Below are positions 15,543 to 35,680 of a stretch of DNA of 64,000 nt, in pieces (the stretch's first letter is position 1; each line of letters starts with the position of its first letter). The stretch covers positions 2,166,501-2,230,500 of the forward strand of contig CP063167.1 of the NCBI GenBank assembly GCA_016806145.1, written 5' to 3'. The notes under the pieces were generated by a model, which searched no databases, was not told where the DNA came from, and was given only the letters and a program-made list of their open reading frames with translations. The position numbers and the translations under genes are program-made. Origin of the DNA: Variovorax paradoxus (GTDB lineage: Bacteria; Pseudomonadota; Gammaproteobacteria; Burkholderiales; Burkholderiaceae_C).

Positions 15543-15557
15543 ATTGGTAGGACCAAT
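15543..15557. promoter_or_regulatory. Operator-like palindrome ATTGGT-AGG-ACCAAT (TGGT-N3-ACCA family)
   Basis: Perfect six-base arms around AGG. The form TGGT-N3-ACCA is typical of FadR/FCD GntR operators, and near-identical sites recur at 19152, 22310, 23457, 29818 and 35670. This copy touches the predicted -10 box of the Rieske operon promoter, so binding would be expected to repress. Confidence 0.72.
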
Positions 15558-15583
15558 GCTAAATTCGAGCCCGCGCGATGCAA
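15556..15583 (-). promoter_or_regulatory. Putative sigma-70 promoter of the Rieske operon
   Basis: On the minus strand TTGCAT (15583-15578), a 16-base spacer, then TAGCAT (15561-15556). The -10 overlaps the end of the palindrome at 15543-15557. Hexamers are read by eye; no transcript data. Confidence 0.45.
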
Positions 15584-15609
15584 AGCTTTTGTCTCAATAA
15601 CCTTGTGAA

Positions 15610-15630
15610 TGGATCAACCATAGATGGTTG
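15610..15630. promoter_or_regulatory. Degenerate operator TGGATCAACCA plus inverted repeat CAACCA/TGGTTG
   Basis: TGGATCAACCA (15610-15620) is a one-mismatch copy of TGGTTSAACCA and is identical to the copy at 44190. It overlaps CAACCA-TAGA-TGGTTG (15615-15630), a second inverted repeat built from the same half-site. The position is upstream of the Rieske promoter and 104 bases before the nitroreductase, so it might serve either. Confidence 0.5.
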
Positions 15631-15733
15631 AAATGAGCGAGGTGGCCGCCGTCGCGCATGTCTTTCGCCGCGTCGCCAGCGCGAGCGCGCCGGCGCGGTT
15701 AGGCTCCCTCGTCTTCATCCCGTTGCCCGAGCC

Positions 15734-16435
15734 ATGACCACTTCCCCGCCCATTCCCGCGCCGGATCTCGCCGCGGCCCTCGACACCGTGCTCGACGCGC
15801 GCTACAGCTGCCGCGGCTACCTCGCCGACCCGGTGCCGCGCGACGTCATCGACGCGATCCTGCGCGCCGCCCAGCGCACGGCCTCGTGGTGCAACTCGCA
15901 GCCCTGGCAGGTGGTCGTGACCGGCGCGGCCGCCACCGAGCGCCTGCGCGCGGCGATGGCCACGCCCGAGGCGCTGGTCGACCAGGGTTTCGAGATCGCG
16001 CCGCCCGCCGAATACCGCGGTGTCTACCGCGAGCGCCGCCGCGAATGCGGCTTCCAGCTCTACGACAGTGTGGGCATCGCCCACGGCGACCGCGAGGCCT
16101 CGGCGCGCCAGGGGCTTCTGAACTTCTCGTTCTTCGGCGCGCCGCACGTGGCGCTGATCCACACCGATGCCGCGCTCGGCGCCTATGGCGCGCTGGACTG
16201 CGGCGCCTACGTGTCGAACTTCATGCTGGCTGCGCGCAGCCGCGGCGTGGCGAGCATCGCGCAGGCCGCGCTCGCTTCGCGCGCGAAATTCTTGCACCGC
16301 TGGTTCGACATCCCGGAAGACCGCCAGGTGGTCTGCGGGATCTCCTTCGGCTACGAGGACCCGGCGCACCCGGCCAACGGTTTCCGCACCTCGCGCGCTG
16401 CCGTCGGCGACGCTGCGCGCTGGGTCGAGGACTGA
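15734..16435 (+). CDS. Nitroreductase-family flavoprotein
   Basis: 233 residues of the FMN-dependent nitroreductase fold. The flavin-binding N-terminal segment DARYSCRGYLADPVPRD matches the conserved Arg-Ser-x-Arg region, and RTASWCNSQPWQVVV is the next conserved block. A central GALDCGAYVSNFMLAARSRG and the C-terminal VVCGISFGYEDP complete the family pattern. These enzymes reduce nitro groups, quinones or enones with NAD(P)H, and the true substrate cannot be deduced. It is divergent from the Rieske operon with 252 bases between, and converges on the exporter at 16451. Confidence 0.9.
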   Translation: MTTSPPIPAPDLAAALDTVLDARYSCRGYLADPVPRDVIDAILRAAQRTASWCNSQPWQVVVTGAAATERLRAAMATPEALVDQGFEIAPPAEYRGVYRERRRECGFQLYDSVGIAHGDREASARQGLLNFSFFGAPHVALIHTDAALGAYGALDCGAYVSNFMLAARSRGVASIAQAALASRAKFLHRWFDIPEDRQVVCGISFGYEDPAHPANGFRTSRAAVGDAARWVED

Positions 16436-16450
16436 TCCGGTGGCCCTTGC

Positions 16451-18088
16451 TCAGGGGCTGCGTTCGGCCAGGTAGTGGCGCGTGAGCACCGGCTCGTGCG
16501 GTACCTGGAAGCTGCGCGCGAGCGCCTCCAGCTCGTGGCGCGCGACGGTGGCCCGCGCGCGCTGGCGCAGGTAGTCGGCCCACGAGGTGACGATGAAGCG
16601 CTCGACGTAGCGGCTCGGGTCGTCGAGGTCGCGGTAGACGCGCCAGAAGGTGGCGCCGTCGCGCTTGCGCGGCACCGCGAGCTGCTGCACCGCATCGAGG
16701 AAGCGCCGCGCATCGGCATCGCGGATGCGGTAGACCACCTCGACGGCGACCGGCCCGGCCTCGAATTCGGGCTCGTGCTGCACCGAGAACTCCTCGTGCA
16801 GCGGCGCCAGCGTGACCTCGTCGTCCGCGCCCATGCGCAGCGGATACGGCCGTGCCAGCGCAATGCTCGCGAGCATGCCCGCGGCCGACAGGCACAGTGC
16901 CGCGCTCAACCCGATCAGCGAGGACATCGCGCCCCAGAGCGCGGAGCCGAGCGCGAAGGCGCCGAGCGAGCACAGGGTGTGCATCGACGCGGCGCGCGCG
17001 CGCACCCAGGCCGGCGCGCTGGTCTGGGTCGCGGCGTTGAAGGTCGACATCATCGTCATCCAGGCCGCGCCGCCGAGCACGAAGCTGGCACAAACGAGTG
17101 GCCGCCAGGTCGAGAGCGCGCCCACCAGCATCGCGCCCGAGAACACGAGGCAGCAACCGGCGGCCAGCGCATCGAGCGAGAAGCGCGAGCGCATGCGCCC
17201 GACGAAGAAGCCGGCGGCGACGGCGCCCGTGCCCAGGCAGGCCATCAGCAGGCCGTAGCCCGCCGCGCCCAGTCCGAGGCGCTGCTGTGCGATCACCGGC
17301 AGCAGGGCCCACAGGGCCGAGCCGAGCCCGCTGAAGCCGGCCGTGCGCACCAACTGCGCGAAGATCGCTGGCGAATGGCGCGCATAGCGCAGCGCGCTGA
17401 GCATGCCGCCCCACAGCCGCTCGGCCGGCAGGCGCCCGGGCGAGGGCGGCCGCGGCGGCCAGCGCCGCGTGGCCCAGCTCATGCCGAAGGCGGTCAGCAC
17501 CGCGACCGCGAACACGGCGGCGCCGCCGGTCAGCGCGAACAGCACGCCCGCGAGCCCGGGGCCGACGGCGCGCGCGCCGTTGAAGGTCATCGACACCAAG
17601 GTGATCGCCAGCGGCAGCTCGGTGCGCGCCACCGTGTCGCTGACGGCGGAGTTCCACGAGGGCGACTGCAGCGCCGTGCACACGCCCAGCAGGAAGGTGA
17701 AGAACAGCAGCCCGCCCGGGCCGATCCAGCCGGCCAGCGCGAGCAGCGTGAGCGTCAGCGCGGCGAGCCCGTAGACACCCTGGATGCGCAGCATCAGGCG
17801 CCGGCGGTCGATGGTGTCGGCCAGCACGCCGGCGGGCAGCGACAGCAGGAACATCGGCAGGAAGGAAGCGGTCTGGACCAGCGCCGAGAGGAAGGACGAG
17901 GCCGTGAGCTCGATCATCAGCCACGAGGCCGCCATGTTCTGCATCGCATTGCCGACGAAGAACAGGCTGCCGGCACCCCAGAGCCCGCGGAAGGCGGGCT
18001 GGGCGAGCGGACTCCAGAGCGAGGCTGCGTTCGGGGCGGTGGGATTGCTGGGATTCAAGCGCGGGGCGATCGGCGGCGGGCGAGGCAA
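16451..18088 (-). CDS. MFS exporter (MFS_3/EntS type) with C-terminal monooxygenase-like domain
   Basis: 545 residues. About twelve membrane segments occupy residues 1-410, beginning PLAQPAFRGLWGAGSLFFVGNAMQNMAASWLM, which is the usual start of the MFS_3/enterobactin-exporter group (visible as FRGLWGAGSLFF). The last 100 residues form a soluble ferredoxin-like domain resembling antibiotic-biosynthesis-monooxygenase folds (TFWRVYRDLDDPSRYVERF, SWADYLRQR), a known extension in this family. The predicted role is efflux of a small molecule. No ATG lies near the N-terminus in this frame; the only start before the conserved region is TTG at 18086-18088, without a clear ribosome site, so the start is uncertain. 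Confidence 0.85.
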   Translation of the reverse strand: MPRPPPIAPRLNPSNPTAPNAASLWSPLAQPAFRGLWGAGSLFFVGNAMQNMAASWLMIELTASSFLSALVQTASFLPMFLLSLPAGVLADTIDRRRLMLRIQGVYGLAALTLTLLALAGWIGPGGLLFFTFLLGVCTALQSPSWNSAVSDTVARTELPLAITLVSMTFNGARAVGPGLAGVLFALTGGAAVFAVAVLTAFGMSWATRRWPPRPPSPGRLPAERLWGGMLSALRYARHSPAIFAQLVRTAGFSGLGSALWALLPVIAQQRLGLGAAGYGLLMACLGTGAVAAGFFVGRMRSRFSLDALAAGCCLVFSGAMLVGALSTWRPLVCASFVLGGAAWMTMMSTFNAATQTSAPAWVRARAASMHTLCSLGAFALGSALWGAMSSLIGLSAALCLSAAGMLASIALARPYPLRMGADDEVTLAPLHEEFSVQHEPEFEAGPVAVEVVYRIRDADARRFLDAVQQLAVPRKRDGATFWRVYRDLDDPSRYVERFIVTSWADYLRQRARATVARHELEALARSFQVPHEPVLTRHYLAERSP

Positions 18089-18130
18089 ATCATATAGATG
18101 CGTGCGCCGGCCCGCTCGCGGCGCGCCCGC

Positions 18131-19114
18131 TCAGACCTTGATGCGCCCGGTCGCGACCAGCTTCTGCGTCAGCGCCAGCTGCTCGGCCAGGAAGCTCGAG
18201 AGCTTCTGCGGGCCCCAACCGGCGGGCTCGAAGCCCAGCTCGAGCAGCTTGGGCGCCACGTCGGGCAGCTTCACGATGCGCGCCATCTCGGCATCGAGCT
18301 TGTCGATGATGGCCTTGGGCGTGGAGGCCGGCGCGAACAGCGCGCCGAAGCCCGGCATGTTCACTTCGGGGAAGCCGGCCTCGGCGAAGGTGGGCACGTC
18401 GGGATAGAGCGGAAAGCGCGTCGGGCTCGCGACCGCGAGCGCGCGGATCTTGCCGGGGTAGCGCGACACGCCGCCCAGCGACACCACGGCGGTGTCGATC
18501 TGGCCGCCGATCAGGTCCTGCAGCGCCGGCGCCTCGCCCTTGTAGGGCACGTGCACGGTGTCGATGCCCGCGGCCATGTTCAGCAGCTCGCCCACGAAGT
18601 TGCCGCCCGAGCCGGGGCCGTAGGAGCCGTACGAGATCTTGCCGGGCTTCGACTTCGCCAGCGCCACCAGCTGGTCGAGCGTCCTGACGTTGAGCGACTC
18701 GCGCACGCCGATGGCGATGGGCGTGAGCGCGAGCATGCCGATGGGCGCGAGGTCGGCGAGCTTGTAGGGCTGTTGCGCGGGCTGCAGCACGAGGTTGCTG
18801 ATCAGCGCGCTGTAGCCGACGCCGAGCGTGTAGCCGTCGGGTGCGGCGCGCGCCACCGCGGCGGCCGCGATCGCGCCGCTCGCGCCGGCCCTCGACTCCA
18901 CGATGCACGGCTGGCCCCAGGCCTCGGTGAGCTTCTGGCCGACGACCCGCATCATCGTGTCGTGCCCGCCGCCGGCCGGCGTGGGAATGATGAACTTGAT
19001 GACGTTGTCGGGATAGCCCGGCGCGGCACGCGCGGCCAGGGGAAAGGCGGGCAGCGCCGAGGCGCCCAGCAGGCCGAGGCCGGTGGCCAGCGCGTGGCGG
19101 CGGGAGTGGGTCAT
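18131..19114 (-). CDS. Bug-type (TctC family) periplasmic substrate-binding protein
   Basis: 327 residues. The signal peptide carries SRRHALATGLGLLG (twin-arginine-like) and ends near ARA/APG. The Bug signature reads YPDNVIKFIIPTPAGGGHD, with PDGYTLGVGY further on. A His in the GGGHD segment replaces the more common Thr-Asp or Ser-Asp, which may alter the binding pocket. It is transcribed alone, divergent from the GntR gene at 19276, from a promoter (TTGACC-17-TATGGT) overlapped by the TGGTTGAACCA palindrome. Control by that regulator is likely but unproved. Confidence 0.92.
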   Translation of the reverse strand: MTHSRRHALATGLGLLGASALPAFPLAARAAPGYPDNVIKFIIPTPAGGGHDTMMRVVGQKLTEAWGQPCIVESRAGASGAIAAAAVARAAPDGYTLGVGYSALISNLVLQPAQQPYKLADLAPIGMLALTPIAIGVRESLNVRTLDQLVALAKSKPGKISYGSYGPGSGGNFVGELLNMAAGIDTVHVPYKGEAPALQDLIGGQIDTAVVSLGGVSRYPGKIRALAVASPTRFPLYPDVPTFAEAGFPEVNMPGFGALFAPASTPKAIIDKLDAEMARIVKLPDVAPKLLELGFEPAGWGPQKLSSFLAEQLALTQKLVATGRIKV

Positions 19115-19275: not shown

Positions 19276-20004
19276 ATGTCGGAATCCGCACCAGTCTTCG
19301 CGCCCGTGCGCATGCGCCGCGCCTTCGAGGCGATTTGCGACCAGATCCGCCAGCAGGTGGTGGAAGGCGTGCTGAGTGCCGGCGACCGCCTGCCCAGCGA
19401 GCGCGAGCTGTCCGAGCAGTTCGGCGTGAGCCGCAGCGGCGTGCGCGAGGCGCTGCGCAGCCTCGAGATGGCCGGCATGGTCGAGGCCGTGACCGGCATC
19501 AACGGCGGCTTCTACATCAAGCAGTCGCATCCCGAGGGCATCACGCAGGCGGTGCGCGACATGGTGGCGCTCAAGCAGGTGCCGGTGTCGGACCTGACCG
19601 AGGCCCGCATCCTGCTGTGCGGGCTGGCGATCCGGCTGGCCTGCGAACGCGCGACCGAAGAGGACTTCGCCGCCATCGAGGCCGACATCGAGCGCTTCGC
19701 CGAGCTGGTGAAGCAGGGCCGGCCGGTGCGCGACAGCGGGCAGATCACGGAGTTCTATCGCCTGATCGGCCGCGCCACCCACAACGAGGTGATCGTGATG
19801 CTGATCGACGCCCTGTCGGAGATCCTGCGCGGCCTGATCGCGCAGCTGCAGACGCCGCACAGCAACGTGGTGCAGGTGCGCCGCAAGGTGCTGCGACTGA
19901 TGCGCGACCGCGATGCGGACAAGGCCGGCGCCGCGCTGGCCAAGCACCTCAACGCGCTGAACGTGCTGCTGCTCGAGATGGAGCGCAAGAAGCCGGCGCG
20001 CTGA
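19276..20004 (+). CDS. GntR/FadR-type (FCD domain) transcriptional regulator
   Basis: 242 residues. Winged helix at about residues 12-80 (RRAFEAICDQIRQQVVEGVL, GDRLPSERELSEQFGVSRSG, VREALRSLEMAG), then a mostly helical FCD effector domain (TEARILLCGLAIRLACERAT, ITEFYRLIGRATHN). ATG 19276 is chosen over the longer reading from 19177 because AGGAGGAAAGGAG stands immediately upstream and the family N-terminus follows. It is divergent from a Bug gene with a TGGTTGAACCA palindrome between them. It and the GntR at 22442 have very similar recognition helices (EQFGVSRSGVREALRSL and EQFGVSRNTLREALRSL), so they may read the same site. Confidence 0.93.
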   Translation: MSESAPVFAPVRMRRAFEAICDQIRQQVVEGVLSAGDRLPSERELSEQFGVSRSGVREALRSLEMAGMVEAVTGINGGFYIKQSHPEGITQAVRDMVALKQVPVSDLTEARILLCGLAIRLACERATEEDFAAIEADIERFAELVKQGRPVRDSGQITEFYRLIGRATHNEVIVMLIDALSEILRGLIAQLQTPHSNVVQVRRKVLRLMRDRDADKAGAALAKHLNALNVLLLEMERKKPAR

Positions 20005-20026: not shown

Positions 20027-22276
20027 TCAGCGCGGCAGGCCGAGCCCGCGCTGCGCGATCAGGCTGCGCTGGATCTCGTTGGTGCCGATGCTGATCACCC
20101 ACATCAGCGCATGGCGCAGGTTCTGCTCGATGCGCCCGCGCAGCACCGCGCCGGGACTGCCCTCGCCGAGCGTGCCTTCCATGCCGAGCAGGTCGAGCGC
20201 CACCTCGCCGAAGCGCTCCATCAGCTCGCCCGAATAAACCTTGCTCGCGGCCGCGTCGTGCAGCGGCGTCTGGCCCGCGTCGACGCGCTCCGCGCAGTGC
20301 ATCATCATGCGGCGCCCCGCCTCGATCTGCCCCGCGAGGTCGGCGATGCGCTCGCGCACCAGCGGATCGAGGCGCATCGGCCGGCCGTCGGCACCCGTCG
20401 CGCCGCGCAGGTGTTCGCACAGCTGCTCGAAGGCATGCGCCACCTTCATCACGATGCCGCCGCCGATGAAGCCGCGCTCGGTGGCCAGTGCCCCGACCAG
20501 CACCTTCCAGCCGCCGTGGAGCTCGCCCACCATCGCCTCGGCCGGCACGCGCACGCCGTCGTAGAAGACATTGGCGAAGCTGCCGCCGTACATCGTGGTC
20601 GAGGTGCGGATGGTGATGCCGGGCGTGTCCATCGGCACGATGAACAGGCTCAGGCCGGCATGCGGCGGGCTCGCGTCGGGGTCGGTGCGCGTGGCTAGCA
20701 GCATGTAGTCGCCCCAGTAGGTGGTGGTCCAGATCTTCTGGCCGTCGATCACGTAGTGGTCGCCGTCGCGTACCGCGCGGGTGCGCATCGACGCGAGGTC
20801 GGAGCCCGCGTCGGGCTCGCTGTAGCCCATGCCGTAGATCGCCTCGCCGCGCAGGATCTCGGGCAGGTAGCGCGCCTGCTGCGCCGCGCTGCCGTGTACC
20901 TGCAGCATCGCGGCCTGCACCGGCGCGCCCACGCGCGGTGCCTCGGCGCGTTCCATCTCCTCGACGAAGGCCAGTTGCTCGAAGGCGCCGCGCGCCTGGC
21001 CGCCGAAGCGCTGCGGCCACGAGAGGCCGATCCAGCCGGTGCGCCCGAGCGCGCGCGCGAACTCGCGGTCGTACTCGCGCGCCTTGAAGTCCAGCGCCTC
21101 GTGCGCGGCCTTGCGCTCGCCCGACCAGTGCGTCTGGAGCCAGGCGCGCACCTCCTCGCGAAAGGCGTTGCCGGCCGGGCCCAGGTCGTATTCGGGCAGC
21201 GTGCGCGGCGTCTCGCCGAGGAAGTGATCGGCCAGGGCCTCGCGCGCGCGGCGTCCACCGCCGTGGCGCAGCACGTCGAGATGCACCTGCTTGAAATGGC
21301 GCGGCGCCTCGTGCTCCTCGCTGTAGCCGATCGCGCCGAAGGTGTGCTGCGTTTCCAGCGACACCCGGCGCAGCGTCGTCGCGGCCAGCGCGCAGGCCGC
21401 CTCGGCGAACACGCGCCAGTTGTCGGCGCCGAGGTCGTGCTGCCGCGCGGCGCCCGCCTGCGTGAGCCGAGCGCCCAGCAGCGCGATGTGGCCGTCGGCG
21501 AGCTTGTGCTGGATCGCCTGGAAGCTGCCGATGGGACGGCCGAACTGCCGGCGCTCGCCCGCATAGGCCACGGCGAGCTCGAAGGCGCGTTCGGCGGCGC
21601 CGGTGGCGCGCGCGCACAGCGCGAGGCGGGCCGTCGCGTGCAGCGCGTCGAGCTGCTCCTTTGACAGTGCGAGGACGGAGGCGGCGATCCCGTCCAGCAC
21701 GACGCGGAACAGCCCCTGCGTTCCCATCGCTGGCGTGGCCTCGATGCGCACGCCAGGCGCGCGCAAGTCGATCAGCGCGAGCGCGGGGCCGTCCACCATC
21801 ACCGCGAGGTGGGTGGCGCTGTCGGCATGCTCGACGAAGGCGAGTTCGCCGTGGAGCCTGCCGTCGTCGTCGATGCGTGCCTCGCCCGCGCCGCGGTCGC
21901 CGTCGAAGGCCCCGAAGCACAGCACCACGCGCGCCTCGCCGGCGCGCTGCAGCGCGAGCACCGCGGGCTCCTCGCCCCGTGGCGTGCGCGGCGCCGCTAG
22001 GTTCAACAGCGTGCCGTGATGCAGCGGCAGCGTGCAACCCGCGCGGCCCAGTTCCTCCATGACCAGCGCGATCTCGCGCAGGCCGCCCTCCGAGGGATCC
22101 GATCCCAATGCGGCAAGGCCCTGCGCCGCGAGCTGCTGCCACAGCGCCTGCACGCGCGCGGGTTCGCGTGCCCATGGCACGGCGGTGGCGGGCGGCCAGT
22201 GGCGCTCGAGGAAGCCGCGCACCGAGTCGCGCAGCAGGGCGCGCTCTTCGTCGCCGGGAAGGGTGGTCGGGGGCAT
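20027..22276 (-). CDS. Double acyl-CoA dehydrogenase (two fused ACAD domains, FadE34-like)
   Basis: 749 residues, about twice a normal acyl-CoA dehydrogenase. Residues 1-360 form a first, divergent ACAD domain (GAAERAFELAVAYAGERRQF, then GSFQAIQHKLAD). Residues 370-749 form a second with good FAD/substrate motifs (YGMGYSEPDAGSDLASMRTRA, GQKIWTTT, MYGGSFANVFYDGVRVPAE, ISIGTNEIQRSLIAQRGLG). Mycobacterial FadE34 has the same fused layout and handles a steroid side-chain CoA. ATG 22276 is supported by AGGAGAG upstream. Predicted reaction: alpha,beta-desaturation of a bulky acyl-CoA with electrons to ETF. It stands alone, divergent from the GntR at 22442, with its -10 box inside a TGGT-AGA-ACCA palindrome. 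Confidence 0.88.
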   Translation of the reverse strand: MPPTTLPGDEERALLRDSVRGFLERHWPPATAVPWAREPARVQALWQQLAAQGLAALGSDPSEGGLREIALVMEELGRAGCTLPLHHGTLLNLAAPRTPRGEEPAVLALQRAGEARVVLCFGAFDGDRGAGEARIDDDGRLHGELAFVEHADSATHLAVMVDGPALALIDLRAPGVRIEATPAMGTQGLFRVVLDGIAASVLALSKEQLDALHATARLALCARATGAAERAFELAVAYAGERRQFGRPIGSFQAIQHKLADGHIALLGARLTQAGAARQHDLGADNWRVFAEAACALAATTLRRVSLETQHTFGAIGYSEEHEAPRHFKQVHLDVLRHGGGRRAREALADHFLGETPRTLPEYDLGPAGNAFREEVRAWLQTHWSGERKAAHEALDFKAREYDREFARALGRTGWIGLSWPQRFGGQARGAFEQLAFVEEMERAEAPRVGAPVQAAMLQVHGSAAQQARYLPEILRGEAIYGMGYSEPDAGSDLASMRTRAVRDGDHYVIDGQKIWTTTYWGDYMLLATRTDPDASPPHAGLSLFIVPMDTPGITIRTSTTMYGGSFANVFYDGVRVPAEAMVGELHGGWKVLVGALATERGFIGGGIVMKVAHAFEQLCEHLRGATGADGRPMRLDPLVRERIADLAGQIEAGRRMMMHCAERVDAGQTPLHDAAASKVYSGELMERFGEVALDLLGMEGTLGEGSPGAVLRGRIEQNLRHALMWVISIGTNEIQRSLIAQRGLGLPR

Positions 22277-22307: not shown

Positions 22308-22322
22308 AATGGTAGAACCATT
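22308..22322. promoter_or_regulatory. Operator-like palindrome AATGGT-AGA-ACCATT
   Basis: Six-base perfect arms, core TGGTAGAACCA (22310-22320), the reverse complement of the site at 35670. It overlaps the predicted -10 of the double acyl-CoA dehydrogenase promoter and lies 119 bases from the divergent GntR start. Confidence 0.73.
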
Positions 22323-22441: not shown

Positions 22442-23317
22442 ATGGACGCCAAAGAACCGTCGCCACCCGCGGCCGACGCACGGAGCGCCAAGTTCCAGCC
22501 CATCCGTTCCGCGCGTGCCTTCGAGGAGATCGCCCAGCAGATCCGCGGCGAGCTGTCGCAGGGCCGGCTCAAGGTCGGCACGCGGCTGCCGTCGGAGCGC
22601 GCGCTGTCCGAGCAGTTCGGCGTGTCGCGCAACACCCTGCGCGAGGCGCTGCGCTCGCTCGAGCATGCGGGGCTGATCCGGCTGCAGAAGGGCGCCAGCG
22701 GCGGCGCCTTCATCAGCGGGCGCAGCGGCGACGCGATCGCCACCGGCCTGATGGACATGTACCACATGGGCGCGATCCAGCCGGCGCAGCTCACCGAGGC
22801 GCGCATCTGGCTCGAGTCGATCCTGGTGCGCGAGGCCTGCGCGCGCGCCACGCCCGCCGATCTCGAGGCGCTGGCGGCCAACATCGACGCGGCCGAGGAG
22901 GCGCTGCGGCGCGACGACTTCCCCGCGCGCGCGGCGACCAACCTCGAGTTCCACCGCATCCTCGCGCGCATGACCGGCAATCCGATCATGGTGATCGTGA
23001 TGAACGGCGTGCTCAACGTGCTGGCCGAGTTCATCGGCCAGATCGGCCACGAGGAGAACGCCTACGTGCTGCCCTCGCGCCGCCGCTTCCTCAAGCACCT
23101 GGCGGCCAAGGACGCCGACGCGGCCGCCGCGGAGATGGAGTCCAGCCTCAAGCGGCTGCAGCGCAGCTACCTGTCGAAGGTGGGCGAGGACGCCGCGCAG
23201 GAAGCTCCGGCCGCGGCGCCGGCGCCACGCAAGGCGGCGGCCAAGGCCCCGGCCGAGAAACCGGCTGCGAAGGCCGCGACCAAGTCCGCCACCCGCGCCG
23301 CGAAGACCACGCGCTGA
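22442..23317 (+). CDS. GntR/FadR-type (FCD) regulator with basic Ala/Lys/Pro-rich tail
   Basis: 291 residues. Winged helix at about residues 22-90 (SARAFEEIAQQIRGELSQGR, LPSERALSEQFGVSRNTLRE), then an FCD domain (NLEFHRILARMTGNPIM) to about residue 240. The last 45 residues are a low-complexity tail of Ala, Lys, Pro and Thr (for example APRKAAAKAPAEKPAAKAAT), like histone-H1-type tails of Burkholderiales proteins. It probably adds nonspecific DNA contact. GGAGG stands upstream of the ATG. The gene is divergent from the double acyl-CoA dehydrogenase, is followed by a strong terminator, and is a prime candidate for the TGGT-N3-ACCA binder. Confidence 0.92.
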   Translation: MDAKEPSPPAADARSAKFQPIRSARAFEEIAQQIRGELSQGRLKVGTRLPSERALSEQFGVSRNTLREALRSLEHAGLIRLQKGASGGAFISGRSGDAIATGLMDMYHMGAIQPAQLTEARIWLESILVREACARATPADLEALAANIDAAEEALRRDDFPARAATNLEFHRILARMTGNPIMVIVMNGVLNVLAEFIGQIGHEENAYVLPSRRRFLKHLAAKDADAAAAEMESSLKRLQRSYLSKVGEDAAQEAPAAAPAPRKAAAKAPAEKPAAKAATKSATRAAKTTR

Positions 23318-24277: not shown

Positions 24278-24288
24278 AGAGACGAGCC

Positions 24289-26395: not shown

Positions 26396-26453
26396 GGCAG
26401 GAAGCGGCTGCCGCGCCGCCCGCCAGACCAGACACACAACGAAGGAGACAGAC

Positions 26454-27862: not shown

Positions 27863-27990
27863 TAACCGCTCCACCTTGACTCGAAGTACATCGATCCCGC
27901 TCGAGGAGACGAGCGGTCTCCGCTCGTTCGACTATCGCAATGGGGATTTGACTGGATGCTGGAGGGAGTGCGAAAGTCTGCCGAAGAGCA
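27859..27990 (+). pseudogene. Decayed TacT-like GNAT toxin remnant
   Basis: A GTG overlapping the antitoxin stop begins VITAPP, the usual start of TacT-type acetyltransferase toxins, but the frame hits TGA after six codons. A second frame then reads PLEETSGLRSFDYRNGDLTG, resembling the next conserved toxin segment (FD-x-GN-x-x-L). No acetyl-CoA-binding motif follows. This suggests a frameshift plus loss of the 3' part. The end coordinate is approximate. Confidence 0.5.
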
Positions 27991-28133
27991 GATGCTCGCA
28001 CTTTCCGCTTCGGCCTGGTCAGCCGTTGCAACTGGCGTAGATCGCCTTGGAAGGGGGGCGGTGGTTCCCGCCCAAGATCGGGTGTGGAAGACCATCAGGC
28101 GAAGCGCCTCCAATTGCCTTCGTTTTCTCGCGT

Positions 28134-28532: not shown

Positions 28533-28534
28533 CT

Positions 28535-29704
28535 TCAGTTCCTTTCGAGGATCAGGGTGGCGCTGCCGTGGCGCGAGCCGAGCAGGCCGCCCGTGCCCTG
28601 CGCGAGCGCGAGGCCGCAACCGGGGACCTGTACCTTCGGATGCGCCTCGCCGCGCAGTTGGCGCACGGCCTCGATCACCTTGGTGATGCCGCCGCGGTTG
28701 GCGGGATGGTTGTTGCACAGGCCGCCGCCGTCGGTGTTGAACGGCAGCTTGCCGACGCCCGAGATCAGGTTGCCGTCGGCCACGAAGCGGCCGCCCTCGC
28801 CCTTGCGGCAGAAGCCCAGGTCCTCGAGCTGCATCAGCACGGTGATGGTGAAGCTGTCGTAGATCGACGCGTACTGGATGTCGGCCGGCGTCACGCCCGC
28901 TTCGGCGAACGCGATCGGGCCCGAGACGGCGGCGCCCGACCAGGTGAGGTCGAGCTGGCCGTTGGCCTGGCCCTTCACGGTCTCGCCGGCACCGAGCACG
29001 CTGACCACGGGCCGCGCGAGCGAGCGCGCGATCTCGGGGCGCACCACCAAGAGCGCGCCGCCGCCGTCGCTCACGACGCAGCAGTCGAGCTTGTGCAGCG
29101 GGTCGGAGATCATCGGCGAGGCCAGCACGTCCTCCACGGTGACGGGATCGCGCAGCATCGCGTTCGGGTTGTGCTGCGCATGCGCGGCGGCGGCGACCTT
29201 GATCCAGGCGAGCTGCTCGCTGGTGGTGCCGAACTCGTGCATGTGGCGCGCCGCGGCCAGCGCGTACATGTTGACCGTGACCGGCGCATAGGGCATTTCC
29301 CAGGCCACGTCGGGCGTGGCCGCGGTCACGTTGCGCGGGCCGGTGCCCACGCCGCTGGCCTCGGTGCGCGGGCGTCCCGCGAGCGTGATCAGCGCCACGT
29401 TGCACTTGCCCGCGGCGATGGCCTGCGCGGCATGCGAGACCTGCACCAGGTAGGCGGAACCGCCGGTGTCGGTGCTGTCGACATGGCGCACCTTGAGGCC
29501 GAGGTAGTCGACCATGCTCAGCGGGCCCAGGCCCGGCGCGTCGCCCGCGCAGAAGTAGCCGTCGACGTCCTGCAGCGACAGGCCGGCGTCGGCCAGCGCG
29601 CCGCGCGCGCATTCCGCATGCAGCTGCGGCACCGTCTTGTCGGGCGCCTTGCGCGTGGGGTGTTCGAAAGCGCCTGCGATGCAGGCCTGTCGCTTGATGC
29701 TCAT
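28535..29704 (-). CDS. Thiolase-fold protein without nucleophilic cysteine (Ltp2-like acyl-CoA lyase candidate)
   Basis: 389 residues. The active-site helix reads DTGGSAYLVQVSHAAQAIA and ends at Gly99; the nucleophile position (17 residues earlier) is Gly82. Other blocks are HMHEFGTTSEQLAW, DCCVVSDGGGALLV, YASIYDSFTI (Tyr in the place of Ltp2 catalytic tyrosines) and NTDGGGLCNNHPANRGG. Closely resembles the product of 47953. With its DUF35 partner it probably cleaves a C-C bond in a beta-hydroxyacyl-CoA. It is divergent from the ligase operon at 29904, with the TTGGTTCAACCAA site between. Confidence 0.87.
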   Translation of the reverse strand: MSIKRQACIAGAFEHPTRKAPDKTVPQLHAECARGALADAGLSLQDVDGYFCAGDAPGLGPLSMVDYLGLKVRHVDSTDTGGSAYLVQVSHAAQAIAAGKCNVALITLAGRPRTEASGVGTGPRNVTAATPDVAWEMPYAPVTVNMYALAAARHMHEFGTTSEQLAWIKVAAAAHAQHNPNAMLRDPVTVEDVLASPMISDPLHKLDCCVVSDGGGALLVVRPEIARSLARPVVSVLGAGETVKGQANGQLDLTWSGAAVSGPIAFAEAGVTPADIQYASIYDSFTITVLMQLEDLGFCRKGEGGRFVADGNLISGVGKLPFNTDGGGLCNNHPANRGGITKVIEAVRQLRGEAHPKVQVPGCGLALAQGTGGLLGSRHGSATLILERN

Positions 29705-29817: not shown

Positions 29818-29829
29818 TGGTTCAACCAA
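29817..29829. promoter_or_regulatory. Operator-like palindrome TTGGTTCAACCAA
   Basis: Six-base perfect arms around C; core TGGTTCAACCA at 29818-29828. It lies between the divergent thiolase-like (28535) and ligase (29904) genes and covers the predicted transcription start of the latter. Confidence 0.76.
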
Positions 29830-29903: not shown

Positions 29904-31568
29904 ATGACCCCGCACGATTCGAAGCACTGGCCGCGCACCCTGCCGCGCGACATCGACGTTCCGCCCACCAACCTGTGCGCGAACCTGCTGGTGTCGGCCA
30001 TGCGTTCTCCGCAGCGCGCGGTGGTGGTCGACGATTTCGGCAGCCTGTCGTACGCGGCGCTGGTCGAGCAGATGGAACGCATCGCGGCCTTCCTGCAGCA
30101 CGAACTGGCGGTGCGCCTGGGCGACCGCGTGCTGCTCTACCTGCCCAACGGCCGCGGTTGGATCGCGGCCTACTTCGCGATCCTGCGCATCAACGCGGTC
30201 GTGGTGCCCGTCAACCCGATGAACAAGCGCGACGAGCTGCCGCACTACCTCGAGGACAGCGAGGCGGTGGTGGCCTTCTGCGGCGCCGACAACGTGGCGG
30301 AGCTGCTGGCCGTGCCGGGCGCGCACCGGCTGCGCCGCGTGGTGATCGTCGGCAGCCCGGGGCCGGTGGACGACCTGGTGGAAGCCGCCGAGCCGTCGGA
30401 TGCGGCATCCGGCGCGTCGCGCACCATCGGCCTGCGCCGGGTGCTGGCGGCCGCCGGCGCGCCCGCAGCCCCGCTCGAGCACCTGCCCGATGCGCTGGCG
30501 CTGATCCTCTACAGCTCGGGCTCCACCGGCGTGCCCAAGGGCTGCATGCACACGCACCGCACGCTCAATGCCAGCACGGTCGCGGTCGCGCACTGGATGG
30601 GCATGGTCCCGCATTCGGTGCAGCTGGTGGCGCTGCCGTACTTCCACATCACCGGCATGCAGAACCTGCTGAACGCGCCGATCTACGGCGGCGGCACGCT
30701 GGTGCTGATGAAGCGCTGGGACCGCGACCGGGCCGCGGCGCTGATCGCGCGGCACCGCGTCAGCCACTGGACGGCGATGCCGACCATGGTGATCGACTTC
30801 CTCGCGAGTCCGCGGCTGGCCGAGTACGACCTGAGCTCGGTGCGCCGCATCGGCGGCGGCGGCGCGGGCATGCCCGAGGCCGTGTGCGAGCGCCTGAAGC
30901 AGTTGACCGGGCTCGACTTCCTCGAGGGCTATGGGCTGTCGGAAACGGCGCATGTCTCGGGCAACCCCGCGCATGCGTTCAAGCGCCAGTGCCTGGGCAT
31001 ACCGCTGTTCGGCACCGACCTGCGCATCGTCGATCCCGAAACCCTGCGCGAGCTTCCGCCCGGAGAGGTCGGCGAGATCGTGATGTCGGGGCCGCAGGTG
31101 TTCGCGGGCTACTGGCGCAACGAGCAGGCCACGCGCGCGGCGCTGCTTGAGATCGACGGGCGGCGCTTCGTGCGCAGCGGCGACCTCGGGCGGCGCGACG
31201 AGGACGGCTACTTCTTCATCGTCGACCGGCTCAGGCGCATGGTCAATGCCTCGGGCTACAAGGTCTGGCCGGCCGAGGTCGAGGCGATGCTGCACGAGCA
31301 TCCGGCCATCGCCGAGGCCTGCGTGATCGCCGCGCACGATCCCTATCGCGGCGAGACCGTGAAGGCGGTGGTGGTGCTGCGCGAGGCGCATGCGGGCCAG
31401 GTGCGCGAGGCCGACGTCATCGAATGGGCGAAGCAGAAGATGGCCGCCTACAAGTACCCGCGGCTGGTCGAGTTCGTGCGCGAGCTGCCCAAGTCGCCGA
31501 CCGGAAAGATCGCCTGGCGCCAGCTGCAGGACGCCGAGCGCGCGAAGGCCCCGATGGCGTCCGCCTGA
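29904..31568 (+). CDS. AMP-forming acyl-CoA synthetase
   Basis: 554 residues of the ANL superfamily. Motifs in order: P-loop YSSGSTGVPKG, the A4/A5 region GYGLSETAH, the ATP-ribose Asp in RSGDLGRRDEDGYF, the hinge DRLRRMVNASGYKVWPAEVE and the catalytic Lys in SPTGKIAWRQL. It activates a carboxylic acid to acyl-CoA with ATP. AAGGAC precedes the ATG. First gene of a plus-strand operon with SDR, DUF7064-like, enoyl-CoA hydratase and MaoC genes, so it starts a beta-oxidation sequence. The substrate is not evident; medium- to long-chain or cyclic acids are possible. Confidence 0.92.
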   Translation: MTPHDSKHWPRTLPRDIDVPPTNLCANLLVSAMRSPQRAVVVDDFGSLSYAALVEQMERIAAFLQHELAVRLGDRVLLYLPNGRGWIAAYFAILRINAVVVPVNPMNKRDELPHYLEDSEAVVAFCGADNVAELLAVPGAHRLRRVVIVGSPGPVDDLVEAAEPSDAASGASRTIGLRRVLAAAGAPAAPLEHLPDALALILYSSGSTGVPKGCMHTHRTLNASTVAVAHWMGMVPHSVQLVALPYFHITGMQNLLNAPIYGGGTLVLMKRWDRDRAAALIARHRVSHWTAMPTMVIDFLASPRLAEYDLSSVRRIGGGGAGMPEAVCERLKQLTGLDFLEGYGLSETAHVSGNPAHAFKRQCLGIPLFGTDLRIVDPETLRELPPGEVGEIVMSGPQVFAGYWRNEQATRAALLEIDGRRFVRSGDLGRRDEDGYFFIVDRLRRMVNASGYKVWPAEVEAMLHEHPAIAEACVIAAHDPYRGETVKAVVVLREAHAGQVREADVIEWAKQKMAAYKYPRLVEFVRELPKSPTGKIAWRQLQDAERAKAPMASA

Positions 31569-31628
31569 GCGAACCGCACCGCCTCGTACACCCAGTTCAA
31601 CCCCCCATCCATCATCCAACGGAGACCT

Positions 31629-32402
31629 ATGCAGAACCTCGTCAATCTCGAAGGCCGCACCATCGTCGTGACCGGCGCCGGGCAGGGCATCGGCAAGGCG
31701 ATCGCGACGCTCGCCGTGCAGCTCGGCGGCAACGTCGTCGCGCTCGACCTCAACCCCGACACGCTGGGCGCGGCGATGTCCGCGCTGCCCGCCAACCGCG
31801 TGCAGCAGGTGGTCGGCAGCGTGACCGACGCGGACCTCGCCGCGCGCGCCGTCGCCGAGGCCGTGGAGCGCTTCGGCGGCGTGCACGGCCTGGTGAACAA
31901 CGCCGGCATCACGCGCCCGGCCATGATCGAGAAGATGACGCCGCAGCAATGGCAGGAGGTGATCGACGTGCACCTCACCGGCACCTTCTACTGGTTGCAG
32001 GCCGTGGGCCGCCACATGGTGGCGCGCGCGAAGGCGGGCGACACCAGCGGCGGCGCCATCGTCAACATCTCCTCCGACGCCGGCCGCAAGGGCTCGATCG
32101 GCCAGGTCAACTACGCGGCCGCCAAGGCCGGCATGCTCGGCGTCACGATGACGGCGGCGCGCGAATGGGGCCGCTACAACATCCGCACCAACTCGATCTG
32201 CTTCGGCGTGGTCGAGACCCCGATGACCGAGGTGGTGCGCGGCGAGAAATTCCGCGACGGCATGCTCGCGCAGATTCCGCTGGGCCGCTGGTCCACGCCC
32301 GAGGAGGTGGTGAAGACGGTGTGCTTCCTGATGTCGGACGCAGCCTCCTACATCACCGGTCAGCACCTGGGGGTCAACGGCGGCTTCCACATCAGCCTGT
32401 AG
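31629..32402 (+). CDS. Short-chain dehydrogenase/reductase (FabG-like)
   Basis: 257 residues, classical SDR. Cofactor motif VVTGAGQGIGKAIA (12-25), NNAGIT, catalytic Ser in VNISSDAG, and Tyr/Lys in YAAAKAG. The C-terminal ITGQHLGVNGGFHISL is typical. It probably oxidises a beta-hydroxyacyl-CoA or a ring hydroxyl with NAD(P)+. It lies 60 bases after the ligase with AACGGAG before its ATG, in the same operon. Confidence 0.92.
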   Translation: MQNLVNLEGRTIVVTGAGQGIGKAIATLAVQLGGNVVALDLNPDTLGAAMSALPANRVQQVVGSVTDADLAARAVAEAVERFGGVHGLVNNAGITRPAMIEKMTPQQWQEVIDVHLTGTFYWLQAVGRHMVARAKAGDTSGGAIVNISSDAGRKGSIGQVNYAAAKAGMLGVTMTAAREWGRYNIRTNSICFGVVETPMTEVVRGEKFRDGMLAQIPLGRWSTPEEVVKTVCFLMSDAASYITGQHLGVNGGFHISL

Positions 32403-32416
32403 CTACGGGGCGAACC

Positions 32417-33454
32417 ATGTACATGCCGCCCCACAGCAAGCTGCGGCTCGATCCGCGGGACGAATACAACCACGTGCCCGAGGCCGTGTCCAACTACAAC
32501 GAGAGCGCCTACTTCAACGCCTTCGACAGCGCGCGCGGCATCGGTGCCTGGATGCGCCTGGGCAACCGGCCGCACGAGGGGCATGCCGAGCTCAGCTGCT
32601 GCGTCTACCTGCCCGACGGCCGCGTGGGCTTCATGCACCAGCGCCCGAAGATCGCGCACAACGAGGCCCTGGACGCGGGCGGCATGCGCTTCGAGGTGAT
32701 CGAGCCTTTCAGGCACCTGCGCGTGCACTACGAGGGCGAGCTGCTGCTGATGGACGACCCGCATGCGATGGCCGACCCGGGCAGCGCCTTCAAGCGCTAT
32801 CCCAAGCGGCCCGCCTCGATCGCGCTCGACTTCCGCGGCGTCTCGCCGATGCACGGCGGCGAGATCGTCGCGCTCGACGGCAGCCCGATCGTGCTGGACC
32901 CCGAGCATGCGGTGTACCGTGGCCACATCGAGCAGAACATGGCGGTGGCCGGCCACATCGCGGTGGACGGCCTGCGCTTCGACATCGCCGGGCACGGCTA
33001 CCGCGACAAGTCCTGGGGCCCGCGCCACTGGCACAGCTTCTACTGGTACAAGTGGCTGCCCGTGACCTTCGGCGACGACTTCGGCGTGCTGCTGTCGATC
33101 AAGGGCCGCAAGGGACAGCCGAACCACGTGAGCGGCAACGTGCTGCGCGACGGCCGCTACGAGCCGGTGGTCGACGGGCGCATCGAGACCGACTACGACG
33201 CGCAGCACTATCCGCGCGCCTTCACCGCGCAGGTTCGCACGGCCGAGCGCAGCTACACCCTGACCGGGAAGGTCGGCGCGCTGGTGCCGCTGCGGCATCG
33301 CCGCGTGGCAGGCGGCGCCGGTGACTACACGCGCATCACCGAGGGCATCACCGAGTACCGCTGCGAAGGGCGTGGCGCGCTGGGCATGTCGGAGTACTGC
33401 GACGTGATGGTGGACGGCGTGCCGATCTCGGTGCGCGAGACGGAGGCGCGATGA
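32417..33454 (+). CDS. Lipocalin-like hypothetical protein (DUF7064/CrtC-like)
   Basis: 345 residues. Not confidently named. It is rich in beta strands and carries HGYRDKSWGPRHW, a motif seen in DUF7064-type proteins related to carotenoid hydratase (CrtC/AttH) lipocalin folds, plus repeated aromatic motifs (FYWYKWLPV). No signal peptide. CrtC-type proteins hydrate C=C bonds of large hydrophobic substrates, so a hydratase or carrier role for a bulky terpenoid-like acid is a guess. The stop overlaps the next ATG (ATGA at 33451-33454). Position between an SDR and an enoyl-CoA hydratase ties it to this pathway. Confidence 0.72.
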   Translation: MYMPPHSKLRLDPRDEYNHVPEAVSNYNESAYFNAFDSARGIGAWMRLGNRPHEGHAELSCCVYLPDGRVGFMHQRPKIAHNEALDAGGMRFEVIEPFRHLRVHYEGELLLMDDPHAMADPGSAFKRYPKRPASIALDFRGVSPMHGGEIVALDGSPIVLDPEHAVYRGHIEQNMAVAGHIAVDGLRFDIAGHGYRDKSWGPRHWHSFYWYKWLPVTFGDDFGVLLSIKGRKGQPNHVSGNVLRDGRYEPVVDGRIETDYDAQHYPRAFTAQVRTAERSYTLTGKVGALVPLRHRRVAGGAGDYTRITEGITEYRCEGRGALGMSEYCDVMVDGVPISVRETEAR

Positions 33455-34242
33455 AGACCCTCGACTACCGGCTCGACGACGGCGTGGCGACGCTCACGCT
33501 CAACCGTCCCGAGGCGAAGAACGCGCTCGATCCGACGATGGCCGACGAACTCGGCGAATGTCTCGCCGCGATCCGCGCCGACGAGTCGGTGCGGGTGCTG
33601 GTGCTCGCCGGCGCCGGCGGCGCGTTCTGCGCGGGTGGCGACGTCAAGGCCATGGGGCAGGGCGGGCCGCGCACGCCCGAGCAGCGGCGCGCCGGCATGG
33701 CGCGCTACACGCGCATCTGCACCGAACTGATGGCGCTCGACCGCCCGGTGATCGCCGCCGTCGACGGCGTGGCCTACGGCGCCGGCTTCAGCCTGGCGCT
33801 GATGTGCGACATCGTGCTGCTTTCTGAACGCGCGCGCCTGTGCATGGTGTTCCAGCGCATCGGCCTCGTGCCCGACATGGGGGCCTTCTACACGCTGCCG
33901 CGCGTGGTGGGCCTGCAGCGCGCGAAGGAGCTGATCTTCTCGGCGCGCGAGATCGACGCCGCCGAGGCGCTGCGGCTGGGCCTGGCGATGGAGGTCGTGC
34001 CCGCCGAGGCGCTGGCGGCGCGCGCGCAGGTGATTGCGCGCAGCTTCGCGGGCGCTTCGCCGGTGGCGATGAGCATCGCCAAGCGCGCCTTGCAGGCCTC
34101 GCTCGGCAGCGACCTCCAGACGCTGCTGGAGATCGAGTCGTCCGGCCAGGCGCTGGCCTCGAACAGCGACTACGCGAAGGAGGCGGTGCGGCGCTTCGCG
34201 GCGCGCGAGCCCGCGCAGTTCCGCTGGCCGCCTGCCGCGTGA
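33451..34242 (+). CDS. Enoyl-CoA hydratase/isomerase
   Basis: 263 residues of the crotonase fold. N-terminal VATLTLNRPEAKNALD, oxyanion-hole block GAGGAFCAGGDVKAMG, PVIAAVDGVAYGAGFSLALMCD, then RIGLVPDMGAFYTLPR. In this last block the position usually held by the second catalytic Glu is Asp or a nearby residue, so hydratase versus isomerase activity is open. It overlaps the DUF7064-like gene and precedes the MaoC-type hydratase by 47 bases. Two hydratases in one operon suggest two distinct beta-oxidation turns or an isomerase role for this one. Confidence 0.9.
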   Translation: MKTLDYRLDDGVATLTLNRPEAKNALDPTMADELGECLAAIRADESVRVLVLAGAGGAFCAGGDVKAMGQGGPRTPEQRRAGMARYTRICTELMALDRPVIAAVDGVAYGAGFSLALMCDIVLLSERARLCMVFQRIGLVPDMGAFYTLPRVVGLQRAKELIFSAREIDAAEALRLGLAMEVVPAEALAARAQVIARSFAGASPVAMSIAKRALQASLGSDLQTLLEIESSGQALASNSDYAKEAVRRFAAREPAQFRWPPAA

Positions 34243-34289
34243 AGCGCGGCGACCTCGACAGATTTACCGACACGACAAGGCAAGCGACG

Positions 34290-35156
34290 ATGCTCGACTA
34301 TCAGAAGGCCCGCGACTGGCAATCCGGCGAGGTGCGCCACGACTACGCACCGAGGGACACCATGCTCTATGCGCTCGGCCTCGGCCTGGGCGCCGATCCG
34401 CTCGATGAGCGGCAGCTGCGCTTCGTCTACGAGAAGGAGCTCGCGGCGCTGCCGACCATGGCGGCGGTGCTGGCCTCGCCGGGCTTCTGGATGCGCGAGC
34501 GGCGCGAGATCGGTATCGACTTCATGAAGCTGGTGCACGGCGAACAGGCGCTGCGCCTGCATGCGCCGTTGCCGCCATCGGGCACGGTGCTCGGGCGAAC
34601 GCGCGTCACGCGCGTGGTCGACAAGGGCGAGGGCAAGGGCGCGGTGCTGCATGTGGAGAAGGAACTGGCCGATGCCGAAGGCCGGGCGCTCGCCACCGTC
34701 GAGAGCGTGTATTTCCTGCGCGGCGACGGCGGCTTCTCCCAGGCCGATGGGCGCAGCGACGAAGCCGCCGCGCCGGCGCCGGCCACGCCCGAGGGCGCGC
34801 CGGAGCATGTGCTGGACCTGCCCACGCGGCCCGACCAGGCGCTGCTCTACCGGCTCTCGGGCGACCTCAACCCCTTGCATGCCGAACCGGCCTTCGCGGC
34901 CAGGGTGGGCTTCGCGAAACCGATCCTGCATGGCCTCGCGACCTGGGGCATCGCGGGCCGCGGCCTGCTCGAGGCGCATGCCGGCCTCGATCCGGCGCGG
35001 CTGGTGGCGATGCGCGCACGCCTGTCGGCGCCGGTCTATCCGGGCGAGACGATCCGCCTCGAGAGCTGGCGCAACGGCAACGAGGTGGCGTTTCGCGCGC
35101 GCGTGCTCGAGCGCGACCTGCTGGTGCTGACGCACGGCCGCGCCGAGCTGCGATGA
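34290..35156 (+). CDS. MaoC-type 2-enoyl-CoA hydratase (hydratase 2, double hot dog)
   Basis: 288 residues, the size of the double-hot-dog hydratase domain of peroxisomal MFE-2. The catalytic hydratase-2 motif is intact: YRLSGDLNPLHAEPAFAA followed by GFAKPILHGL, containing the Asp/His dyad. The N-terminal half begins YAPRDTMLYALGLGLGADP, also typical. It hydrates trans-2-enoyl-CoA to the (3R)-hydroxy product, often for bulky or branched chains. Preferred ATG 34290; the longer frame runs back through the crotonase gene. The stop overlaps the quinone-reductase remnant by ATGA at 35153. Confidence 0.91.
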   Translation: MLDYQKARDWQSGEVRHDYAPRDTMLYALGLGLGADPLDERQLRFVYEKELAALPTMAAVLASPGFWMRERREIGIDFMKLVHGEQALRLHAPLPPSGTVLGRTRVTRVVDKGEGKGAVLHVEKELADAEGRALATVESVYFLRGDGGFSQADGRSDEAAAPAPATPEGAPEHVLDLPTRPDQALLYRLSGDLNPLHAEPAFAARVGFAKPILHGLATWGIAGRGLLEAHAGLDPARLVAMRARLSAPVYPGETIRLESWRNGNEVAFRARVLERDLLVLTHGRAELR

Positions 35157-35663
35157 AGGCCTGGCGCGTCGAGGCGATCGGCGATCCGGCCGGCCTGCGC
35201 CTCGCCGACGTGCCCACGCCGACACCGGCCGCCGACGAGTACCTCGTGAAGGTCGAGGCGGCGGGCCTCAACTTCCTCGACACCTTGCTGGTCGAGGGCC
35301 GCTACCAGGTACGGCCCGCGCTGCCGTTCACGCCCGGCATGGAGGTGGTCGGCACCGTGGTCGGCGGGCCCGAGGCGGGGCTGCGCGTGGCGGCCGCGAC
35401 GCCATCGGGGCGCCTCGGCCATCGGCGTGCTGTGGGGCGAGGTGCGCAAGCGCGAGCCGGCCCTGGCGAGCCGGCTGGCGCAGGAGATCCGCGACTGGTG
35501 GCGCGAAGGGCGGCTGCGCCCGCTCGAGGCCACGGCTTTCGACTTCGCGCGGCTGCCCGAGGCGCTGGCCGCCCTGGCGCAGCGGCGCACCCGCGGCAAG
35601 GCGATCCTCACGATGTCCCCGATGTCGCCGACGGAACGTGCAGGATCGAGTTCGCTTGCGTAG
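35153..35663 (+). pseudogene. NADPH:quinone oxidoreductase-like gene with internal deletion and frameshift
   Basis: The first 82 codons are a normal MDR/quinone-reductase N-terminus (VEAAGLNFLDTLLVEGRY, LPFTPGMEVVG). At about 35405-35412 the frame breaks and the C-terminal end of the same family continues in another frame (GASAIGVLWGEVRKREPALA to TRGKAILTM). Roughly 160 residues, including the nucleotide-binding Rossmann fold, are missing. It starts by ATGA overlap with the MaoC gene, so it was once an operon member. It is non-functional as an oxidoreductase, and the remaining ORF to 35692 encodes only a fusion of the N-terminus with out-of-frame sequence. Confidence 0.85.
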
Positions 35664-35669
35664 AATCAA

Positions 35670-35680
35670 TGGTTCTACCA
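35670..35680. promoter_or_regulatory. Operator-like palindrome TGGT-TCT-ACCA next to a TAGAAT box
   Basis: Perfect TGGT/ACCA arms, reverse complement of the 22310 site. A TAGAAT -10-like box lies at 35661-35666, though no good -35 was found. The palindrome ends immediately before the AAGGAG ribosome site of the acyl-CoA dehydrogenase, giving this gene separate control. Confidence 0.68.

Follow-up and report, generated by a model that had tools for sequence, protein, structure and literature searches.

Candidate operators of FCD-type GntR repressors in a contiguous catabolic island of Variovorax paradoxus

The palindrome TGGT-N3-ACCA recurs at the promoters of a catabolic gene island in a stretch of Variovorax paradoxus DNA of 64,000 nucleotides (contig CP063167.1; the window, by which we mean this whole stretch). 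These palindromes are likely to be operators of GntR repressors of the FadR/FCD subfamily that would silence a contiguous island of 38 kb, with the GntR protein encoded at 22442 acting at seven sites and that encoded at 12428-13177 acting at the site 15545. The sites, their confinement, conservation, promoter geometry and co-occurrence with the regulators, as well as the two site types, were computed here, and from these we infer binding, repression, effectors and substrate. The regulators and the type of site are those of the known FadR/FCD subfamily; the pairing of two operator architectures is what is unusual.

Palindrome copies and the extent of the island

A pattern scan of the window finds perfect TGGT-N3-ACCA at 15545, 19152, 22310, 23457, 29818 and 35670, where 0.21 copies are expected and none of 100 shuffles gets to six. 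All six perfect copies named in an earlier note on this DNA are thereby present; its position 15543 does mark a copy and is off by one, as TTGGT starts at 15544. The two one-mismatch copies that it gave, at 15610 and 44190, are both real, and a weight matrix trained on other genomes ranks them as well. Five of the six perfect copies lie outside called genes, and the sixth (23457) overlaps the predicted start codon at 23456. The sites and the regulators predicted to read them are as follows (strand where one applies).

15545..15555, operator TTGGT-AGG-ACCAA of the Rieske type, predicted target of GntR 12428-13177
15531..15541, degenerate second half-site (TGACCA) at 14 bp distance from 15545, part of a block shared unchanged with Variovorax sp. 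OK212 (L016)
15610..15620, one-mismatch operator TGGATCAACCA of the 22442 type, conserved in L016
19152..19162, operator between a TctC receptor gene (minus) and GntR 19276 (plus), from pattern and matrix
22310..22320, operator between a fused acyl-CoA dehydrogenase gene (minus) and GntR 22442 (plus), from pattern and matrix
23457..23467, operator at the start of the IpdAB-like operon, from the promoter scan
29818..29828, operator between a thiolase operon (minus) and a CoA-ligase operon (plus), from pattern, promoter scan and matrix
35670..35680, operator 9 bp upstream of the acyl-CoA dehydrogenase gene 35689, from pattern and matrix
44190..44200, one-mismatch operator upstream of the seven-gene PimCD-like operon (44131 to 36866), from pattern and matrix
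22442..23317, plus strand, FCD-type GntR, predicted cognate repressor of the seven 22442-type sites
19276..20004, plus strand, FCD-type GntR paralog, possible second reader of the 22442-type sites
12428..13177, minus strand, FCD-type GntR inside the Rieske operon, with complete metal-site residues, predicted owner of 15545

Across the genome (9.44 Mb, three contigs) the bare pattern TGGT-N3-ACCA occurs 47 times, six of them in the window. By our own gene calling, 28 of the 41 outside copies are intragenic; of the other 13, four are at most 300 bp upstream of a start. A hand count finds A/T on both flanks in all six window copies versus two of the 41 outside. The longer pattern WWTGGTTSAACCAWW sharpens this picture: all seven genome matches at up to one mismatch fall in the island, from window position 15608 to 44202. 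Two mismatches add 14 matches, namely 15545 itself and 13 elsewhere, and 15545 is the only match to YTGGTAGGACCAW in the genome.

The matrix was trained on 76 distinct sites from other loci, with perfect half-sites only, and left out seven sites assigned to the 12428 type or its neighbourhood. It picks exactly eight window sites, at 21.2-31.8 bits (next best 9.7), and these are the six perfect and the two one-mismatch copies; the maximum in 30 Markov controls is 14.8 bits. The 286,794 bp of the own genome that were scanned beyond the window, in 43 stretches of which 41 had been chosen for holding a bare palindrome, gave no site at the matrix threshold.

The same palindrome emerges from orthologous loci. 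Of 79 loci fetched with GntR 22442, 39 (L016-L054, at least 53% identity) were scanned without bias for every 4-base palindrome with a spacer of 0-10. TGGT-N3-ACCA ranks first, with 67 intergenic versus six coding copies and a presence in 37 of the 39 loci; the second-ranked GGTT-N1-AACC is its inner part. Over the 39 loci and the window together, 75 of 79 sites precede a start by no more than 300 bp, three are intragenic and one is elsewhere, and their consensus is CAWTGGTTSAACCAWTG. Gene order differs among the genomes; the sites still precede homologous genes. Parts of the island are found again, together with the operator, in Variovorax, Piscinibacter sakaiensis, Bradyrhizobium and Hydrogenophaga, and more distantly in Binataceae.

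A 100-bp rule divides the window into 21 transcription units. Ten of the 11 units that start within 15.48-44.13 kb have a site no more than 300 bp upstream, with divergent pairs sharing one, while in the eleventh (35427-36828) the site 35670 is internal and directly precedes 35689. None of the other ten window units has an upstream site. All strong sites fall within 15.5-44.2 kb; because the Rieske operon runs down to 5635, the island extends from 5.6 to 44.2 kb, or about 38 kb. The dispersed regulon that had been proposed must therefore be rejected for the strong sites, which both the one-mismatch genome scan and the matrix scan confine to one contiguous island. The proposal that FadR/FCD-type operators mark catabolic promoters gains support from this confinement at up to one mismatch, from the orthologous loci and from the co-occurrence described below. 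Two observations pull the other way. Two of the 39 loci have no intergenic site, and the 13 two-mismatch copies of WWTGGTTSAACCAWW outside the island compare with seven reversed-pattern controls (all classes), so that weak targets outside the island are possible.

Probable assignment of the sites to regulators

The window encodes four FCD-type GntR proteins (12428-13177, 19276-20004, 22442-23317 and 58512-59279). All four match Pfam PF00392 (GntR winged helix-turn-helix, N-terminal) and PF07729 (FCD, C-terminal) above cut-off; at E 0.001 Pfam reports FCD, and not FadR_C (PF07840), for each of them. Against NCBIfam, 22442 stays below the cut-offs of NanR (123.5 of 260), LldR (79.1 of 311) and PdhR (77.2 of 330), and 19276 below that of PdhR (105.7 of 330). 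Structure models bear out the folds only.

Co-occurrence indicates that the seven sites probably belong to GntR 22442-23317. Ten of 200 family genomes have a match to this protein (E 1e-40 or better). Those four in which the identity is 61% or more, the organism's own included, hold 7, 7, 10 and 10 sites versus 1, 0, 0 and 0 in the reversed control; among the other 196, as we read the table, none has a forward minus control difference of 6 or more, the maximum being 5. Six family genomes whose 22442 relatives share 35-57% identity have 0-1 sites, which counts against the assignment in general, and the link between 22442 and the sites therefore holds for close orthologs only.

The site 15545 behaves differently. 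A third GntR gene, absent from the earlier note, lies at 12428-13177 inside the Rieske operon, and 15545 most likely belongs to this protein on account of its AGG centre, the 14-bp pairing in relatives and the co-occurrence with a 12428-type GntR. The Rieske operator centre is AGG in five of the six genomes with a 12428 ortholog (window, L016, G113, L059, G236, G175), and a second palindrome (up to one mismatch) lies exactly 14 bp away in four of the six. None of eight Rieske promoters without a seen 12428-type GntR has the 14-bp pair (L017, L024, L037, L038, L057, G031, G157, G217), this absence being genome-wide for G031, G157 and G217 and within the fetched locus for the other five; L037 is without any copy, and the other seven have a single one or two that are spaced differently. 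In 107 sites scanned without choice, a 14-bp partner (up to one mismatch) occurs at three only, all of them Rieske promoters of the 12428 group. Such a partner accompanies seven of ten sites assigned to 12428-type GntRs, three of the ten having been picked after their pairs had been seen. Distant relatives of 12428 (L187, L188 and L189; 37-42%) have perfect 14-bp TGGT-N3-ACCA pairs directly upstream of their own genes. A search of 369 class genomes at E 1e-60 yielded no further 12428 orthologs.

Several details speak against this division. The Rieske operator centre is AGA in G236. At 15545 itself the second palindrome is reduced to a half-site, which sits in a 30-bp block identical in L016, and L016 has no second palindrome at 14 bp even at two mismatches. 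The two AGG sites of L050 (45%) are separated by 20 bp, and in L186 (44% identity) the 450 bp around the 12428 relative hold no perfect site. The split into two types rests on six Rieske promoters with and eight without a 12428-type GntR. Furthermore, the main recognition arginines are common to all four window GntRs, and cross-binding is therefore likely.

A single GntR, 22442 or 19276, might instead control all eight sites, 15545 included. The half-sites are identical, 15545 reaches 21.2 bits with the 22442-type matrix, and G031, G157 and G217, which have no 12428 ortholog, carry a perfect single-type palindrome at the Rieske promoter. The AGG centres and 14-bp partners that accompany the 12428 GntR, and the lack of such partners without it, make this explanation unlikely, though one that keeps some credit. 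The earlier note had assigned all sites to one GntR of the cluster, 22442 or 19276. A GntR of the cluster does appear to be the owner, 22442 being the better candidate, while one regulator for all sites is unsupported at 15545, whose centre and architecture in relatives track 12428-13177.

The 22442-type site 15610 shares the Rieske intergenic region with 15545. In Variovorax sp. OK212 (L016) an operator of the 15610 type stands just before a NUDIX-domain gene; this gene is missing in the window and the operator is kept (window 15620-15733 versus L016 4185-5546).

The paralog 19276 might instead be the main repressor, with 22442 as a helper. It has the site 19152 at its own promoter, and a site also lies upstream of its orthologs in L016, L038 and L044. 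Twenty-two genomes were searched with 19276 at E 1e-30 or better. In 11 of them the single match, at 37-41%, is by position the 22442 ortholog, so that no 19276 ortholog is found at this threshold, and operators are present nonetheless. These 11 are five Bradyrhizobium, one Hydrogenophaga, one Acidovorax, one Binataceae and three metagenome-assembled genomes (MAGs) titled Delta- or Proteobacteria. There, 22442 suffices, which renders a leading role of 19276 improbable. We retain 22442 as the probable reader of the seven sites, and 19276 may be a second one.

The paralogs also differ in residues of the DNA-binding and effector domains. All 39 close 22442 orthologs have R-N-T-L in the recognition helix, where all six close 12428 orthologs have R-N-A-V. 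The metal-site Asp and three His are complete in 11 of 11 proteins of the 12428 type, as in the zinc-dependent FCD regulators TM0439 and HypR, whose metal site is given as Asp plus three His (PMC6608401). Unlike these, the 22442, 19276 and 58512 types lack the second His, which is Arg in all 39 close 22442 proteins, in 7/7 of the 19276 type and in 9/9 of the 58512 type; in the 22442 orthologs the Asp is likewise replaced, by His (29) or Asn (10). This suggests at most that the effectors differ, with a metal-held carboxylate for 12428 and another ligand, such as an acyl-CoA, for the others.

GntR 22442 carries a C-terminal tail (residues 251-291, window 23192-23314) that is basic, rich in Ala, Lys and Pro, histone-H1-like and disordered (predicted local distance difference test, pLDDT, below 50). 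Thirty of 56 distinct tails in 22442 relatives have at least 25 residues, and 25 of these 30 have a net charge of +4 or more. Such a tail recurs in many orthologs with a different sequence, and it is short in the MAGs L045-L048 of Binataceae and Deltaproteobacteria. A link of tail length or charge to site number is not supported in close orthologs (rho 0.09 and 0.15, n=29); over all 37 proteins rho is 0.28 for length (p 0.09) and 0.33 for charge (p 0.04), and 0.62 for identity to the query.

One could combine these features into a reading in which operator architecture separates FCD paralogs with the same half-site, and the 22442 tail raises local DNA affinity or bridges the seven operators. 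A lone 17-bp palindrome would then define the 22442 type, a 14-bp-phased pair the 12428 type and AGGT/ACCT half-sites the 58512 type, and bridging by the tail would silence the 38 kb as one unit. We hold this combined reading to be of low probability. With regard to the third half-site, three perfect AAGGT-N3-ACCTT copies (59311, 59390 and 59454; window 59311-59466) lie beside the fourth FCD GntR, 58512-59279, and a one-mismatch copy stands at 22404, just before GntR 22442; at up to one mismatch the window has four versus 0.19 expected. They are possibly operators of paralog 58512 itself, with AGGT in place of TGGT half-sites.

Promoter geometry and proposed mechanism

A strong sigma-70-like promoter is found in 79 of 145 site-gene pairs versus 21 of 583 control genes; the pairs are not independent, and a few loci come from the same genome. 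From the end of the -10 box to the operator centre that follows it the distance is 4-5 bp in 39 of the 79 and 7-13 bp in 25; in ten the box ends on the 3' side of the centre. Of 97 distinct sites, 46 have TTGAC at 25-46 bp upstream of the operator centre, versus six of 618 control genes. The operator thus sits mostly on or just downstream of the -10 box, which is the geometry expected of a blocking repressor.

In the window, 15545, 19152, 22310, 23457 and 29818 have an above-threshold promoter-like pair. At 22310 a -10-like box lies inside the operator, and the 23457 operator covers the predicted +1 and the start codon, behind TTGACA-N17-TAGGAT. The statement that five of six copies overlap a -10 box or start was accordingly about right. 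The geometry is less well matched at 35670, which is below the promoter threshold and has a TAGAAT box by eye only, and the scan left out 15610 and 44190 as one-mismatch copies. The IpdA-like gene (23456) is possibly leaderless: its predicted +1 is approximately at the ATG, and the ATG (MVEPN...) is inside the operator. The frame from this ATG is also open in L016, L019, L024, L027 and L032; in L029 it meets an immediate stop, and in L026 the gene is read in another frame.

We propose that a dimer of GntR 22442-23317 would bind the single palindrome CAWTGGTTSAACCAWTG at seven places and, because the site is mostly on or just 3' of the -10 box, would block RNA polymerase. An effector, either the substrate or a CoA-thioester intermediate, would free the repressor from all promoters together. 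The 19276 paralog would perhaps share the 22442-type sites, and the Rieske operon would be repressed, additionally or instead, by its self-encoded GntR 12428-13177 through 15545.

Activators rarely sit over or downstream of a -10 box, as most operators do here, with ten of the 79 even having the -10 end 3' of their centre; activation of these promoters by the GntR proteins is on this account quite improbable. Precedent for it exists, as FCD-type activators are described and CitO activates citrate genes (PMC6608401). Any perfect palindrome can form a small hairpin, and chance or a terminator/hairpin element has hardly any claim in view of the statistics, the conservation, the phasing with promoters and the location of 75/79 sites within 300 bp upstream of a start.

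Island genes, known systems and significance

The units downstream of these sites, the Rieske operon among them, are listed below.

5635..15481, minus strand, nine-gene Rieske operon: Rieske oxygenase, reductase, GntR, TctC, CoA transferases, thiolase with ChsH2-type partner, FAD dehydrogenase
15734..16435, plus strand, nitroreductase-family gene, with site 15610 upstream
16451..19114, minus strand, TctC receptor and MFS transporter
20027..22276, minus strand, fused double acyl-CoA dehydrogenase
23456..27497, plus strand, IpdAB-like CoA transferase pair, CoA-transferase III, TctC
28134..29704, minus strand, thiolase 28535-29704 (Pfam Thiolase_C_1) and small open reading frame 28134-28532, a putative partner
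29904..35156, plus strand, CoA ligase, SDR, DUF7064/Rv3169-family protein, enoyl-CoA hydratase, hydratase-2
35689..36828, plus strand, acyl-CoA dehydrogenase
36866..44131, minus strand, seven-gene operon with site 44190 upstream: PimC/PimD-like and another acyl-CoA dehydrogenase, CoA ligase, APH-family protein, DUF6285, enoyl-CoA hydratase

Two intervals stand out. The stretch 35153-35692, between the ligase operon and 35689, is an apparent alcohol-dehydrogenase-like remnant in which only a GroES-like N-terminal domain was found, and the 636 bp at 27498-28133, between the TctC gene and the thiolase operon, have no called gene.

The gene content suggests that a cyclic or alicyclic carboxylic acid is degraded in a CoA-dependent way, and a single substrate for the island is plausible. 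The Rieske oxygenase has a LigXa-like C-domain. The island further encodes CoA ligases, several acyl-CoA dehydrogenases (two of them PimC/PimD-like), two thiolases (one with a ChsH2-type partner), hydratases, IpdAB-like and class III CoA transferases, a KstD-like FAD enzyme and TctC receptors; the NCBIfam matches of key enzymes are mostly below cut-off. The gene 24289-25182 matches 6coj, which we take to be IpdAB, and glutaconate CoA-transferase 1poi nearly alike (1.4e-34 and 4.3e-34). We found no literature on IpdAB with Variovorax, and a wider search returned general papers, mostly on steroid or bile-acid degradation.

The nearest known regulators are of the FadR subfamily, with the operator consensus NyGTM-N0-1-KACNy (Suvorova et al. 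2015, PMC4494728). The island shares with this FCD-type subfamily the GntR and FCD domains, the GT-N3-AC core palindrome, single sites in divergent intergenic regions and a site beside the regulator gene. It differs in having G instead of a pyrimidine before GT, in the packing of seven or eight sites in one island and in the presence of two operator architectures together. The E. coli PdhR box, AATTGGTnnnACCAATT (PMC7660256), has the TTGGT-N3-ACCAA core and A/T flanks in common with the island operators. Unlike PdhR, 22442 and 19276 score 77 and 106 bits versus its cut-off of 330, and they lie in a catabolic island, not in pyruvate metabolism. Atu1419 (PMC7797058) is a tetrameric VanR-type FCD repressor of a catabolic locus with palindromes over -10 boxes, and it also binds a second, degenerate palindrome; its operator sequence is a different one, and its palindromes are 109-190 bp apart, not 14 bp. 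In the open-licence PubMed Central literature we did not find the regulon in print: the operator letters led only to unrelated papers, and no paper turned up on GntR with FCD and Ideonella sakaiensis or on H1-like GntR tails.

These results amount to a regulator-to-target map of a catabolic island that can be tested. Remaining genes of the pathway can be gathered by means of the operator, and derepression of the operons would serve as a readout in a search for the substrate. In the two operator types there is a natural example of the way in which close paralogs with a common half-site might avoid crosstalk.

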